The notes under the pieces: model-generated | Database searches by the model: none | The model's input: only the letters and a program-made list of their open reading frames with translations | Told to the model about the DNA's origin: nothing | Shown: positions 10,048 to 64,000 of the stretch, in pieces | Layout: each line of letters begins with the position of its first letter | How positions within the stretch are numbered: position 1 is the stretch's first letter | Translations under genes and position numbers: made by a program | DNA from: Histomonas meleagridis | Lineage: Eukaryota > Parabasalia > Tritrichomonadida > Dientamoebidae | NCBI GenBank assembly: GCA_020186115.1 | Contig: WSYJ01000005.1 | Coordinates: forward strand, 310,001 to 374,000 | DNA: 64,000 nucleotides | Reading direction: 5' to 3'

Positions 10048-12093
10048 TTACAAATTTTTTACTAAATTATCTTCTCTAAAATCGCGCGCAAATGGATCTT
10101 CTTCAATTGTTTCAACAATTGAATATCCTGATGATATTGTTTTACATGTATCTAAGTTTTGTTTTCCATTACTTTGCGAAGACATTTCTTCGCTTGTTTG
10201 TTTCTTTTGATTTCTTATTCGAACTAATACTATTATAAGTATTATTATTATAACAACTGCGGCAATCACAATTCCAATAATAATGTATATATTATTGTTA
10301 TTATCTTTTGGAGATGTAATGTTTTGATAAAAAATTGTGAAAAAGTTGGAATAAAAACTAAAGTACGAAGAATATATAACAACAGTATATTCATAAAAAA
10401 TAAATTCTGTATTAACAAATGTATGAGTTGTATCTAAGAATGAATGTGTAAATGAATTTGATAAAAATATATTACTAATTGACAATGTATGTGTAAGTGT
10501 TAATGAATATGATAAAACAAAAGTATGAGATATGGTAAAATTATGAATGAATGACTCTGTATTTATATTTGTTTCAGATTTAGGAATTGACTTCGAAAAT
10601 GTAATTGCTTCTGTATAAGTATTTGTTTGAGGTATATTTTGGCATTCATCAAGTTCTTCAACAGTAATATTAAAACCTCCAAACTCATCACTTATATATT
10701 TATCAGTTACCATAATTGTTGAAATAGTTACATTATAAAACACCAAGTCTTCAATTTGTGGCTCTTTTTCACCATTAAAATAAATACATTTCAAATTTGT
10801 ACATTGATAAAAAGCACCTGTCTTAATATTATTTACATTTTTACCTATGATAATTGTTGATAAATTATAGCACCCTGCAAATGAATATGTTCCAAGTTCG
10901 ATTACATTATTTGGAATAATGAAATTTCTTAATGAAATACATTTATTAAATGAATAATCACCGATTACAGTAACATTTGTACCAATTATTGGATTTATTA
11001 AATTAGAACATAAGTAAAATGCTGAATACCCAATTGATGTAACTTTATTTGGAATTATGATTGTGGTTAATAAAGTGCAATTACTGAACGTATATTCATC
11101 AATAATTTGAACATTCTCACTAATGGTAACATCTATTAAAGTAATGCAATGTTGAAATGCATATGATCTAAGTGTAGTAACTGTATTTGGAATTGTGAAA
11201 TTTTTGATTTTATAGCATTGATTAAATGCAAATTCACCGATTACTTTAATAGTATTACTGATAATAACATTTTCTAAGTTAACACAATTGGAAAATGCGG
11301 CGTAATCAATGGAAGTAACTGAATTTGATATTATCAAAGATTGTAAATTATAACACTTAAAACAGGAATGATCATAAATATTTTGAATGTTTTCTCCAAA
11401 AATAACTTCAATAATATTATAACAATATCCAAAAGAATAAGATCCTAAATATGTAACTGAATTTGGTATTGTGAAATTGATCAAATTAGAACATAAACAA
11501 AATGAATAATTTCCAATCGTTTGAAGATTTTTACCAATTATAATTGTTTCAAGATTAGAACAGTTATGGAAAGCATTGTTACCAATCGAAGTAACGATAT
11601 CGCCTAGTGAAACCGAAGTAAGTTTGCAGTTTCTGAATGCATCATATGGAATTGCATCGACACCAGAAACAACGATATATTTGGCATCTTCTTTATAATC
11701 TGCACTAAAATCACTTGAATCCTCTATATATAAAGTTGACGATGCTTCATCATACTTTTCAAATGATAGTGAGAAAAATACAACAAAAGCAAAAGGAATA
11801 AATTTTTTGTAAATTCCCTTTAAAAAAGCATTTTTAGCAATAAAATAAATTACGCCACTTAAAACAGCAAAAATAAACAATTTAACATCAATTTGACTGA
11901 AACATATTCCATAAGTGTTTCCGTCTGCCAACGACATCAATAATTCGCTCTGTGTCTGTTCTCCACTGCGCATCGCCGAAGTTAAATCAAAAAGAAGCAC
12001 CGAAACTGTAAACGTTTTCTTGGCTAGACATTTGAATACGTAAAAAACAACTTTTTGAATAAAAAACAATGAAACAAATTGAATGAAAAACAT
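10048..12093 (-). CDS. BspA-like leucine-rich-repeat surface protein with membrane anchor
   Basis: A 681-residue protein from the first ATG at 12093; the frame extends upstream only to a GTG. Two hydrophobic stretches occupy the first 115 residues. About thirteen LRR_5 (BspA/TpLRR) repeats of roughly 23 residues follow at about 131-437, with the pattern C-x2-L-x3-I-I and the AF-x2-C signature. Next is a Ser/Thr/aromatic-rich stem at about 480-590, a strong membrane segment at about 601-626 and a 55-residue cytoplasmic tail. The family is greatly expanded in trichomonads and thought to mediate adhesion. The tail ends with EEDPFARDFREDNLV, almost the same as the tail of the gene at 63215. A CACTTTTTG element lies 64 nt upstream. 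The exact start is uncertain. Confidence 0.85.
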   Translation of the reverse strand: MFFIQFVSLFFIQKVVFYVFKCLAKKTFTVSVLLFDLTSAMRSGEQTQSELLMSLADGNTYGICFSQIDVKLFIFAVLSGVIYFIAKNAFLKGIYKKFIPFAFVVFFSLSFEKYDEASSTLYIEDSSDFSADYKEDAKYIVVSGVDAIPYDAFRNCKLTSVSLGDIVTSIGNNAFHNCSNLETIIIGKNLQTIGNYSFCLCSNLINFTIPNSVTYLGSYSFGYCYNIIEVIFGENIQNIYDHSCFKCYNLQSLIISNSVTSIDYAAFSNCVNLENVIISNTIKVIGEFAFNQCYKIKNFTIPNTVTTLRSYAFQHCITLIDVTISENVQIIDEYTFSNCTLLTTIIIPNKVTSIGYSAFYLCSNLINPIIGTNVTVIGDYSFNKCISLRNFIIPNNVIELGTYSFAGCYNLSTIIIGKNVNNIKTGAFYQCTNLKCIYFNGEKEPQIEDLVFYNVTISTIMVTDKYISDEFGGFNITVEELDECQNIPQTNTYTEAITFSKSIPKSETNINTESFIHNFTISHTFVLSYSLTLTHTLSISNIFLSNSFTHSFLDTTHTFVNTEFIFYEYTVVIYSSYFSFYSNFFTIFYQNITSPKDNNNNIYIIIGIVIAAVVIIIILIIVLVRIRNQKKQTSEEMSSQSNGKQNLDTCKTISSGYSIVETIEEDPFARDFREDNLVKNL

Positions 12094-15767: not shown

Positions 15768-16898
15768 ATGGGAAACTTGGGTGGTGATGAATGGAAAACA
15801 TTAACTTTGGTTAAAGATATGATTTTTTCTTTAGGTGGTAAAGGTAGTCAACAAACAGCAAAAGAGTTATTAAAAATATTTGATGCTAATCATCCAAATT
15901 CTTTTAATTTAATTATTATTCAAATGTTATTGTATTTATATATAATTAAAATGAATGATTCTCTAATTTTTGATATTTATTTGGATTTTATTAAAACATA
16001 TTATGATCTTCTAAAGGAAAATAATTATGGTGAATTCTCAATCTTAAAATATTTTATGGAATTTATTAAAGAATTCAAATATTTATTTTCAAATTATATT
16101 CCATCATCAATTAATATTTCTAATTCATTAAATAATATTATATTAGATTATAACTATATATTTTTTCAGAAAATAGAAAATAATATTTTTAAAAACATTT
16201 ACTTAATTCAAAGGAATTCATCGAATATTACAAAAGTTATTCAAAATGATAATGTTGAAGAACTTCAAATTCTTTCATCGCAAACAAATTTTAATTATAA
16301 TCAAATATTAAATTTACCAATTAATGAAGCAAGTTATTTCAATGAATATGAAACTGATGAAATAAATGTTACATTAATTGATTATGCAGCATTTTTTGGA
16401 TCAGTTAAATGTTTTAAATATTTATTACTTAATGGCTCAAATGTAAATACTACGGCTAAATATGCAGTTGCAGGTGGAAATGAAGAAATTATTCATTTAT
16501 GCGAACAAAATCATTCATCATTTGAAGGTTCTTTAGAAATAGCAATTGAATATCATCGAAATGAAATCTTTAAATATCTTTATGAAAATAAAGTTGTTGA
16601 AATATTAAACATAAGCAAATTAGGTAACAAATGTATTATATATCATAACTATGAAATTTTATCATATTTAATTGAAGAAGGAATGGGGATCAATGATTAT
16701 ATAATTAATAAATCAGCAAAAAAAGGTAATTTTTATCTGACTAAACATTTTCTTCAAGTAAAACACATTCCTGAAAATATTTTAATATATGCAGTAAAAT
16801 CAGTAAATATGGAACTTATTGAATATATATTATATATAATTGAACAAAAAGAAATTGATATTAATGCATGTGATATTTATGTCATATATTTAAAATAA
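15768..16898 (+). CDS. DUF3447/ankyrin-repeat protein, 5' part
   Basis: 376 codons open from the first ATG. The N-terminal helical part leads into the trichomonad DUF3447 pattern: ITKVIQNDNVEELQILSSQ, then LIDYAAFFGSVKCFKYLLLNGSNV at about residues 205-227. Degenerate ankyrin repeats follow to residue 370 (IDINACDI). The last seven codons (YVIYLK plus stop) are read-through into the first 77-nt spacer, so the true gene very probably continues. Nine further in-frame ankyrin units follow at 16955-18374, each separated by a spacer (see the repeat entry). Such proteins form large trichomonad families of unknown function, presumably protein-binding. If the spacers are removed from the mRNA, the product would be about 680 residues. 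Confidence 0.8.
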   Translation: MGNLGGDEWKTLTLVKDMIFSLGGKGSQQTAKELLKIFDANHPNSFNLIIIQMLLYLYIIKMNDSLIFDIYLDFIKTYYDLLKENNYGEFSILKYFMEFIKEFKYLFSNYIPSSINISNSLNNIILDYNYIFFQKIENNIFKNIYLIQRNSSNITKVIQNDNVEELQILSSQTNFNYNQILNLPINEASYFNEYETDEINVTLIDYAAFFGSVKCFKYLLLNGSNVNTTAKYAVAGGNEEIIHLCEQNHSSFEGSLEIAIEYHRNEIFKYLYENKVVEILNISKLGNKCIIYHNYEILSYLIEEGMGINDYIINKSAKKGNFYLTKHFLQVKHIPENILIYAVKSVNMELIEYILYIIEQKEIDINACDIYVIYLK

Positions 16899-18374
16899 CT
16901 TTAAATAATTTAATGATTTAATATAAAATTTGGAATTTGTTTGATTTTTTTAATACAGCAATTATTTATGCAACTAAAATCTCAGATTATAAATTAATAC
17001 AATTACTTCTTGAACAAGAAGGAATTGATGTAAATAAGCATGAGTTTAATAATATTTTTTAATTTATTTTTAATTGAAAAATTTAATATTTAACAATAAT
17101 ATTTGGAAATTATTTAAATCATTTGATAATCCACTCATAATTGCAGTTCAAAAAGGTTATTATAAAATAGTTGAACTATTGATCAAACATAAAGGAATTA
17201 ATTTAAATGCTAAAAATATTTTTTTGTTTTACTTGATATTAGTTTTAATAATTTTATATTTCATAATAATATTTGGATTTTATATAAATTATTTAATACG
17301 CCACTTATGTTATCATTAAGATCCAATTTCGAAATATTTGAGTTACTTCTTAAACAAAAAGGAATCAACATTAACAAAAGAAACATTAAATTGTTTTATT
17401 TTTTGTTTATTTCAATGATTTGGTGATTCTAAATAAGATTTGGATTTTACATAAAATATTTGAAACAGTACTTATGAATGTATCATTATATGGATACACA
17501 GAAATAGTTCAATTGCTTCTTGAACAAGAAGGAATTGATATTAATATTAAAGATATTATTCTGTTTTATCTGAAAATTGTTCGAAATTTTTTATGTTTTA
17601 AAATAATATTTGGAATTTACACAAAATATTTGATACAGCGCTTATGTTTGCTTCTCAAAAAGGTAATATAGAAATTGTTAAATTACTTCTTGAACGAGAA
17701 GAAATTGATATTAATGCTCAAAATGTTTATTTGTTTTATTTTTTATTTATTTTAATCATTTATAATTACAAATTATTATATGGAAATTATTCGTATTATT
17801 TATGACAGCACTTATTTATGCATCTCAAAATGGTAATATAGAAATAGTTGAATTGCTTTTAGAACAAAAAGGAATTGATATTAATGCTAAAGACATTACA
17901 TTATTTAATATAATATTTCAATTAATAATTATATATTTCATGAAAATATTCGGAATTTATACAATTTATTTAAAACAGCACTTATGTTTGCATCAGAAAA
18001 TGATCATTTAGGAATAATTGAGTTACTTCTTAAACAAAAAGGAATTGATTTAAATAATAAAAACATTTTTTTAATATGTTTGAAATACATTTTAATAATT
18101 TGTAATTTCACTATAATATTTGGAATTTTTTCAAATAGTTTGATACAGCTCTTACAATAGCATCTGGAAAAGGTCACAAAGAAATAGTTAAATTACTTCT
18201 GAAACAAGAAGGAATTGATATTAATGCAAAGGATGTTTTTTAATTATTTTTAAATGTTCTTCATTAAATTTTGGATTACAAAATAATATTTGGAAATAAT
18301 TCATATTATTTAAAACGACAATTATGAAGGCACAAATGAGGGGTGAACATGAAACTGTCAGCATTATTTTGTAA
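16878..18374 (+). repeat. Array of 31-codon ankyrin units separated by 77-nt spacers
   Basis: Ankyrin units with uninterrupted coding lie at 16955-17047, 17128-17220, 17298-17387, 17465-17557, 17635-17727, 17805-17897, 17975-18067 and 18145-18237, with a final short one at 18315-18374 ending in TAA. Full units read like TALIYASQNGNIEIVELLLE and end GIDINAKDI. All full units have 31 codons except 17298-17387, which has 30. Spacers are 16878-16954, 17048-17127, 17221-17297, 17388-17464, 17558-17634, 17728-17804, 17898-17974, 18068-18144 and 18238-18314: eight of exactly 77 nt and one of 80 nt. Neither 77 nor 80 is divisible by three, so every spacer breaks the frame, and several contain stops. 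A usual ankyrin period here needs about three more codons. This implies that roughly 68 nt of each spacer would be removed if they are introns. Confidence 0.85.
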
Positions 18375-43477: not shown

Positions 43478-44411
43478 TTTAAAAATGAAAATGAAGGAAA
43501 TTAGAAACAAAGAACAAAAGCAAAAAATAAATAAGAAATTAGGAAAGTTTGAAGATATTTTGAAGATAAATCTTTCTCAATTTTTATAAAAAAAAGTTTT
43601 AATTTGAACATTTTTATTTTATATCAAGTTTGTGTGTTACAATTGATATAATGGTGCATTTTGGAAATGAAAGGGAAAATTCTTTTCGATCTTTAGCGGG
43701 GCACTCCTTCGATTGATGATCAAAAATGATTCGAAATTATGGAATAGAAAAAAGTTCAAAAAATTGCATCATAAATAATTTTTACTAAAATAAAAAATAA
43801 GGGTTGTTTTTATTATATTTTGTCTATATTAAAATACCAAAATCCAAAATTTGCAAAACATCTAAAAAAAGGAAATATTAAGACTGCATAATCAAGCCAA
43901 AACATAATGAAGTATACACAAAGCTAAACACAACAACAAACAAAATATAACCAAACATTACAGCAACAAAACCAAATAATACATTAACATAACAGCAAAA
44001 CCATTTAACGTAACATAACCAAACAATAAAATTACAACAACAAATTTAAATAACACATTAACACAACAACAAAATTAAATAACACATTAACATAACAACA
44101 AAATTAAATAACACATTAACATAACAACAAAATTAAATAACACATTAACATAACAACAAATTTAAATAACACATTAACACAACAACAAAATTAAATAACA
44201 CATTAACACAACAACAAAATTAAATAACACATTAACATAACAACAAAATTAAATAACACATTAACATAACAACAAAATTAAATAACACATTAACATAACA
44301 ACAAATTTAAATAACACATTAACACAACAACAAAATTAAATAACACATTAACATAACAACAAAATTAAATAACACATTAACATAACAATACGTTTAATGT
44401 TATAATTTCAC
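43478..44411. other. Intergenic region ending in a satellite
   Basis: 43478-43890 is AT-rich without genes. From about 43900 the plus strand becomes A/C-rich and almost free of G, grading into the 29-nt tandem repeat. Confidence 0.6.
44040..44395. repeat. 29-nt satellite, about 12 copies
   Basis: Tandem units CACATTAACATAACAACA followed by AAATTAAATAA, 29 nt each. Two variants are mixed: ACAT/ACAC and AAATT/ATTT. The ATTT variant recurs every four to five copies, indicating block duplication. Degenerate units extend upstream to about 43900. It lies 17 bp beyond the stop of the ABC gene, in its 3' flank. It is not a CRISPR array because there are no unique spacers. Confidence 0.9.
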
Positions 44412-62864: not shown

Positions 62865-63214
62865 AATGTATTTAAAGTAAAATTTTTATATTTTTGATAT
62901 AAACTCGATAACTATTAACATCAATGAGTTCGTGTGGTAGTGAATTACTTTAGAGCAAAGAATTTTTAAAGAAAATTTTAATTACATTATTGATGTGGTG
63001 TAGCCAATGTAAATGTTTTGCTTTTGATTATTTCATCTGTGAATTCAGGAAAAAAAAATGGAATCATATATGCAATTAAAAATTTTTGTTTTAAATCCTT
63101 TGATCTTTCTTCTACATATTCTAATGGTTTTTAGTTATACATTACATTTCTTTAATACATTTTTTTGAAAAAGAAATTTTATGTATTTATTTTTACTAAA
63201 TCGCTTTATTATTA
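62865..63214. other. Intergenic, no gene seen
   Basis: The 350-bp AT-rich convergent gap holds no recognisable element. Confidence 0.55.
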
Positions 63215-64000
63215 TTATATTTGATTTACAAATTTTTCTTCTTTAAAATCATCCGCAAAAGGATCTTCTTTGATGTCTGACAATGTCGAACAATTGCCAA
63301 TTGTATCTATTTCCGGTGTATTATATTCGCTTCTGTTTGATTCTTGCTTCATTTCATTTGTTTTCTTTATCCTAAAGCGAATTAAAAATATAACTAACAA
63401 CGCTATGACAATGATTACTCCAATTGTTGCACACACAGCAATGATAATGATTGTTGTTTTGGAATCATTTGGCTGTGAATCGCTTATATAAAAAAGTGTA
63501 TAAAAATCGGAATAAAAAATATAAATTGTCGAATATGAAATCACAATGTACTCATAGTAAATGAACGAAGAATGAAAATATGTAAACAATGAATGATATT
63601 GTGCATGAGTCTGTGAGTGTTGAATAGTAAATAGTTATTGTTTGCGTATGTAAAACTGTTTGTGTAATAATAAATGAATTAGAAAACGTAATTATACCTG
63701 AATCACTTATTGTGTCTGAGAGATGCAATGATGCAGATGCTGTAAATGTATTAGATTTTGTATATGTATTTGATCGTATAAATGTGTTTGTTTTAGTGTA
63801 TGTATTCGATTGTGAAAATGTGTATGTAATTATTGGCGAACAATCACCGGGTGCGTCAGTGGTGACATTCAGTATTCCAAAATATGTATTTTTATATCCA
63901 TTTAATACCATAACTGTTGTTGAAACGTTAAAAAAAGAGCTCTCGCCAATATATGGTTCGGCTATTCCATAAAAATAAATACATTTTAGTTTGGAACATA
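63215..64000 (-). pseudogene. BspA-like surface protein, edge-truncated and apparently frameshifted
   Basis: This is a paralogue of the gene at 10048. From the right edge the minus strand reads the end of the LRR region (KLKCIYFYG), then a Ser/Thr-rich stem of YTKSNTF-type repeats in one frame. Homology then continues in another frame from about 63600 (YFHSSFIYYEY), through a membrane helix (about 63385-63450), to a cytoplasmic tail ending IKEDPFADDFKEEKFV. The frame change falls at about 63600-63645, where neither frame alone covers the paralogue. This is either a real lesion, a sequence error in AT-rich DNA or, less likely, a frameshift site. The N-terminal part is outside the window. Confidence 0.7.

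Follow-up and report, generated by a model that had tools for sequence, protein, structure and literature searches.

Spliceosomal introns of 16–17 nucleotides (nt) have been reported from mikrocytids, where those of 179 annotated genes were compared with transcripts, and of 15–16 nt from heterotrich ciliates (PMC10245619, PMC9505925). The introns of Trichomonas vaginalis, of types A and B, are reported to occur once or at most twice per gene and to have GT...AG ends, the 5′ motif being extended and the 3′ motif fused (CTAAC...AG); those of type A span 50–196 nt (PMC12316389). According to the account of the published Histomonas genome, none of its genes has more than one intron (PMC8529796). 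The noncanonical introns of euglenids and diplonemids are described as lacking GT-AG, having base-paired ends and often short terminal direct repeats, and leaving by an unclear route; in two diplonemids their median lengths are 37 and 91 nt (PMC12621601). Finally, the bypassing elements of Magnusiomyces mitochondria are reported as frame-breaking inserts at 81 sites, which are tolerated at expression and whose landing codons often match their take-off codons (PMC5009743). Here we analyse a 64,000-nt stretch of the Histomonas meleagridis genome (assembly GCA_020186115.1, contig WSYJ01000005.1, positions 310,001 to 374,000, forward strand; hereafter the window), in which the repeats of an ankyrin gene appear to be interrupted by 17-nt elements at four consecutive codon boundaries.

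The gene begins with a head coding sequence on the plus strand (15768..16874; 369 codons, from the ATG through the codon preceding the first 17-nt element, which begins at 16875). This DUF3447/ankyrin-like head lies in an open reading frame (ORF) at 15768–16898 with a Pfam DUF3447 score of 39.7 bits, and the head used as query is 62% identical, across 42% of its length, to the best-matching Histomonas protein; head and repeats belong to the same family as the known ankyrin-DUF3447 proteins of Tritrichomonas and Histomonas. A conserved protein encoded in the window likewise points to a parabasalid, with 42% identity to a Tritrichomonas foetus protein and 51% to one from another source. Downstream, Tandem Repeats Finder reports a period of 170 at 17192–18227, and nine ankyrin units of 31 codons (30 in the third) start at 16955, 17128, 17298, 17465, 17635, 17805, 17975, 18145 and 18315. 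Units 1–8 contain no internal stop and the ninth is ended early by one, while the spacers, which measure 77 nt in eight cases and 80 nt in the other, each shift the frame and hold stops. A preliminary description of the stretch had reported these nine units, the spacer lengths, the 170-nt period, the broken frame and a first spacer from 16878, and every one of its numbers proved exact. It had also proposed an exon–intron-like array kept by coding selection, with about 68 non-coding nt and about three exonic codons per spacer, and our analyses support both points (77 = 68 + 9; core stops are given below). Its nine single introns are not supported: the 68 nt resolve into four distinct elements of 17 nt that single codons keep apart, which makes 36 elements in the gene.

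The evidence for this layout comes from a search of the whole genome (43.28 Mb, 121 contigs), which revealed similar arrays at dozens of sites (at least 149 matching pieces). We compared 39 loci with 421 detected units and 382 junctions, comprising 20 of about 41 array clusters, ten arrays picked from heads, four and four from two further listings, and the window. Across 35 loci, which yield 262 distinct units, the triplets at positions 108–110 and 128–130 of the repeat are hypervariable and lie in different frames, yet neither ever forms a stop (0 versus ~7.6–7.7 and 0 versus ~16.4–16.5 expected); the triplet at 168–170 is also stop-free (0 versus ~32), and that at 148–150 is a near-invariant GGA. 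These four triplets stand exactly 20 nt apart, which argues that the spacer consists of four 17-nt elements and that a codon comes after each. Among the 30 spacer offsets at which at least five stops were expected, only the predicted 108, 128 and 168 are stop-free, and glycine is encoded at offset 148 in 239 of the 262 units (91%) as against 0–1% at 15 neighbouring offsets tested. All four loop codons are sense in 262/262 units; the same units have a stop in the spacer in 144 cases when it is read in its own frame and in 67 when it is read in the next. Variability follows the same plan, being 0.32, 0.38, 0.05 (the glycine) and 0.40 at the loop codons and 0.06–0.07 in the 17-mers.

Read in this way, the loop becomes D-x-x-G-x-T-A-L and the repeat acquires a period of 33–34 amino acids; the ankyrin loop consensus is D-x-x-G-x-T-P-L. 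The Pfam test agrees with this, as five decoded units of the window score 192.4 bits against Ank_2, compared with 126.4 when triplets at one other offset are used and 128.4 without the loop residues. Even the highly diverged units of one locus (L061) decode to textbook loops (KN-DKGW-SPI, KS-NRGW-SPI, KD-HDGS-TPL), and each of the nine junctions in the window can be decoded, the glycine codon being GGA in 9/9. We regard the coding layout, with its division into codon-like triplets and bases that are not codon-like, as well supported; this layout, its recurrence across the genome and the 17-nt length are shown by the sequence itself.

Selection on the predicted coding parts points the same way. 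Across the 31 core codons of 264 distinct sequences (the 170-nt unit plus 12 nt), one stop occurs where 140.5 are predicted from independent columns, and much of this expectation is due to hypervariable codons in which only sense triplets occur. Single-change counts relative to expectation are 0.5 for non-synonymous, 0.8 for synonymous and 0.02 for stop changes (27 core codons, 236 units). Reading through the spacer gives stops near or moderately under expectation, both in its own frame (34 versus 50 and 154 versus 170) and in the next (24 versus 35, 31 versus 31 and 42 versus 63). Frame breaks and stops between units are what a pseudogene array amplified from a single interrupted unit would display, an alternative that the preliminary description had offered; against it stand the core stop and substitution counts and the retention of the layout in strongly diverged arrays, and we consider it exceedingly improbable.

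The idea of one intron of ~68–71 nt per repeat draws on two facts: the outer limits of the non-coding part fit 71 nt if only the edge stop counts are used, and two of the three canonical intron matches in the genome measure 71 nt. Three internal triplets of the spacer are nevertheless codon-like, with 0/262 stops and the glycine just described in one of them, and by eye the consensus offers no frame-restoring GT..AG pair. This reading is already disfavoured, and we think it very unlikely indeed. The trichomonad introns belong to the same lineage and the type A range covers the summed 68 nt, but the present elements have neither of their signals. The genome does encode a spliceosome, with a domain match to Prp8 and two matches to U2 small nuclear RNA, one of which was read and contains GTAGTA, the usual branch-binding stretch. 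Canonical introns are represented by three GTATGT...CTAACACACAG matches genome-wide, 65–71 nt long (reversed control, 0); none with a shorter gap was found in the genome, and the 12-nt 3′ intron motif alone was hardly above its control (3 versus 2). One 71-nt match, GTATGT...ACTAACACACAG at C91:123554–123624, lies in a gene that by eye resembles a DHHC-type palmitoyltransferase. As for protein kinases, 126 of the 133 matches listed have no internal stop; the other seven, e.g. C84:1579808–1580623, carry in-frame stops and are mostly longer than usual, possibly owing to other introns, and one kinase-domain match (C78:376002–376739) lies inside a giant open frame of 22955 amino acids.

The 188 elements of 47 diverged units follow the pattern [A/G]TTTA...ATTT, and among 1052 elements from 263 distinct units, 652 begin with [A/G]TTT and 888 finish with ATTT. 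None of the 1052 ends in AG and 31 of the 188 start with GT, while the CTAAC branch motif is absent from all 1052 elements and all 263 spacers. Short terminal direct repeats, the opening four bases being identical to the closing four, occur in excess, in 52 of 188 elements (6.9 in shuffles), but are absent from 136; the ends can pair in five of 188, without excess over shuffles (5.25), and the preceding codon equals the last triplet of the element in only two of 188.

We think it likely, on the layout described above, that this is an intact, multi-piece ankyrin gene whose elements are removed at the RNA level in the manner of introns, since the codons must be joined. Each repeat would consist of 34 codons, of which the first 30 form the helix part and the last four the loop x31-x32-G33-x34. 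Elements would follow codon 30, x31, x32 and G33, at successive codon boundaries, leaving x31, x32 and G33 as single-codon pieces. The elements would be cut from the transcript before translation by machinery that would depend not on GT-AG and a CTAAC branch site but on the RTTTA...ATTT ends and a constant length of 17 nt; that the length is fixed while splice signals are missing suggests that it is measured at some step. As trichomonad splice signals are absent from the elements, ‘intron’ here stands for a supposed mode of removal and not for a demonstrated class. We see about an even chance that they form a new class: non-GT-AG intervening sequences of 17 nt at four consecutive loop codon boundaries, removed by a length-measuring process, non-spliceosomal or radically altered spliceosomal, that keeps single-codon exons.

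Comparison with the systems outlined above gives likenesses and differences. The elements share extreme shortness and a nearly fixed length with the mikrocytid and heterotrich introns (codon positions are 20 nt apart in all 262 units), but they lie 3 nt apart, lack GT-AG and are seen here in one gene family, in sequence alone. Like the euglenid and diplonemid introns, they lack GT-AG; matching ends exceed shuffles here but are absent from most elements. Those introns are longer, and their ends base-pair, whereas pairing here stays at shuffle level. The Magnusiomyces elements are likewise frame-breaking inserts at many sites, and they are the precedent for the main rival explanation, in which the mRNA retains the elements and the ribosome skips each 17 nt, decoding one codon between hops. 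Fixed length, a weak motif and single-codon steps would suit such a ruler-like jump. Bypassing would, however, demand ~120 consecutive hops in the longest array seen (L032, 33 units); the Magnusiomyces elements are, moreover, mitochondrial and often have matching take-off and landing codons, while ours sit on contigs with ordinary nuclear-type genes and almost never show that match. We hold ribosomal bypass to be unlikely.

Junction lengths offer a second view of the elements. Setting aside four junctions longer than 210 nt, in which a unit went undetected, 356 of the 378 remaining fit 102 + 17k + 3m nt (k = 0, 2, 3, 4 or 5; |m| ≤ 2), where k is 4 in most junctions and 3 in the 147–159-nt classes; the values 0, 2 and 5 are each represented by a single length. 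By this measure the 39 loci hold ~1,360 elements, and whole elements appear to have been gained and lost. The 42 distinct 153-nt units, which have one element fewer, have no stop in 168 loop codons and glycine in 32 of 42; they are mutually in frame, and 27 of 42 have a spacer stop as against one of 42 with a core stop, which suggests that the elements go unread even where the frame would permit reading. The first junction of L061 (C63:50618–51904) is a natural 102-nt junction with zero elements (NTKNVLFESPLM), a form shared with a protein of a relative (P0008), and may reflect either element loss or the ancestral state. Two single cases may show how elements come and go: junction 3 of L037 (190 nt) fits five elements plus one codon, and junction 3 of L035 (130 nt) fits two elements minus two codons. 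The window's own first junction (179 nt) breaks the length rule but decodes well, the head unit being longer by three codons.

Several points weigh against the RNA-removal reading or against parts of it. The length rule is weak by itself, as about one-third of lengths would fit by chance, and 22 of 378 junctions fall outside it (eleven of 171 nt, two each of 172 and 154 nt, and single junctions of 91, 155, 162, 168, 169, 179 and 199 nt); apart from the 179-nt junction, these would imply either elements of 16 or 18 nt or errors in the assembly. Two units of L031 have an extra base at the core end. Layouts of the 153-nt units without element 1, 2 or 3 score alike, and only the layout missing the fourth is excluded. 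The loci are not independent, since they were selected by similarity to the array family, and 18 of the 109 listed head matches contain one or two in-frame stops. None of the 1052 elements has GT..AG ends, an ordinary spliceosome would have great difficulty with one-codon exons flanked by introns of 17 nt, and removal from RNA is itself deduced from DNA.

Within its own genome the gene is not the exception that the preliminary description suggested it would be. DUF3447/ankyrin heads occur at no fewer than 109 loci, C5:325768–326895 among them, and many more turned up in two further listings. The open frames of those listed reach at most 541 amino acids, so that automated annotation would yield only shortened proteins of ~400 amino acids. 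Junctions of 170 nt with intact cores were present in 35/35 of the loci first compared, which had been picked by likeness to array or head, and this arrangement is beyond chance. The 17-nt plan also appears to exist in a related species, judging from its proteins on short contigs: the 153-nt form is there translated in frame as x-V-Y-F-N-N-[LF]-x-F-Q-N-N-I-W-N-F-F-K-L-F-x-T-A-L, with variable residues at the model positions x31, x32 and x34. Several of these ORFs stop directly after FQNNI, as would happen if the loop glycine codon changed to GA-, making TGA. Among the ankyrin-DUF3447 proteins of Tritrichomonas and Histomonas, the named records P0013, P0017, P0019 and P0021 show no signs of inserts at the protein level.

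The arrays might instead go untranslated and serve as a reservoir from which repeat cassettes pass into expressed genes by recombination. Head ORFs do finish within or close to the first spacer, and long arrays such as the 33 units of L032, with their hypervariable loop positions, would suit such a store. Along whole arrays, however, stops are absent or almost absent from cores and loop codons, and the final head unit differs from the array units (ILVF..NIELVKYIL versus TALM..EIVKLLL), which gives no sign of cassettes moving into that position; we judge this reading very unlikely. An assembly or sequencing artefact is barely credible: long-read assemblies can gain or lose homopolymer bases and some one-base length variants may be errors, but the relative's proteins, on separate short contigs, fit the same layout and the decoded loops are sense in every unit. 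An artefact would concern single 171-nt units, the layout itself being hardly in doubt. The pseudogene, artefact and cassette-store readings all leave the stop-free single loop codons unexplained.

In the window, all on the plus strand, junction 0 (16875..16951) would comprise elements 16875–16891, 16895–16911, 16915–16931 and 16935–16951 with the intervening codons AAA, AAT and GGA, decoding as ACD-KNGN-TAII, and leads into predicted exon 1 (16952..17047), the x34 loop codon plus ankyrin unit 1 with one extra codon. Junction 1 (17048..17124; elements 17048–17064, 17068–17084, 17088–17104, 17108–17124) decodes as HEF-YNGD-NPLI before exon 2 (17125..17217), x34 plus unit 2. Junction 2 (17218..17294; 17218–17234, 17238–17254, 17258–17274, 17278–17294; AKN-DYGN-TPLM) precedes exon 3 (17295..17384), x34 plus unit 3, shorter by one codon. 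The next five exons each join x34 to the unit of the same number: exon 4 (17462..17554) after junction 3 (17385..17461; 17385–17401, 17405–17421, 17425–17441, 17445–17461; KRN-FGGE-TVLM), exon 5 (17632..17724) after junction 4 (17555..17631; 17555–17571, 17575–17591, 17595–17611, 17615–17631; IKD-EYGD-TALM), exon 6 (17802..17894) after junction 5 (17725..17801; 17725–17741, 17745–17761, 17765–17781, 17785–17801; AQN-FIGM-TALI), exon 7 (17972..18064) after junction 6 (17895..17971; 17895–17911, 17915–17931, 17935–17951, 17955–17971; AKD-NYGK-TALM) and exon 8 (18142..18234) after junction 7 (18065..18141; 18065–18081, 18085–18101, 18105–18121, 18125–18141; NKN-EVGD-TALT). Junction 8 (18235..18311; 18235–18251, 18255–18271, 18275–18291, 18295–18311; AKD-KWGK-TTIM) leads to exon 9 (18312..18374), x34 plus the truncated final unit TTIMKAQMRGEHETVSIIL and the stop TAA.

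Elsewhere in the window, a 29-nt tandem repeat of twelve copies with 96% matches occupies 44036–44388. At 63200–64000, minus strand, two open stretches of ~124 and ~132 codons lie in differing frames near 63626, separated by either a frame break or a short intron; the second has a tail like that of the gene at 10048–12093.

No comparable arrangement was found in the titles and abstract starts listed by searches of open PubMed Central papers. The elements probably number in the thousands genome-wide, in an intron-poor lineage. If they leave the RNA, splicing of 17-nt introns between 3-nt exons without known signals would be needed; if the ribosome jumps, bypassing in a nuclear gene would reach a scale for which we know of no other case. 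Either mechanism would change the limits thought possible for gene expression, and ordinary gene models of such genomes would end at the head, so that the greater part of a large repeat-protein family, with its hypervariable loops, would be missed.
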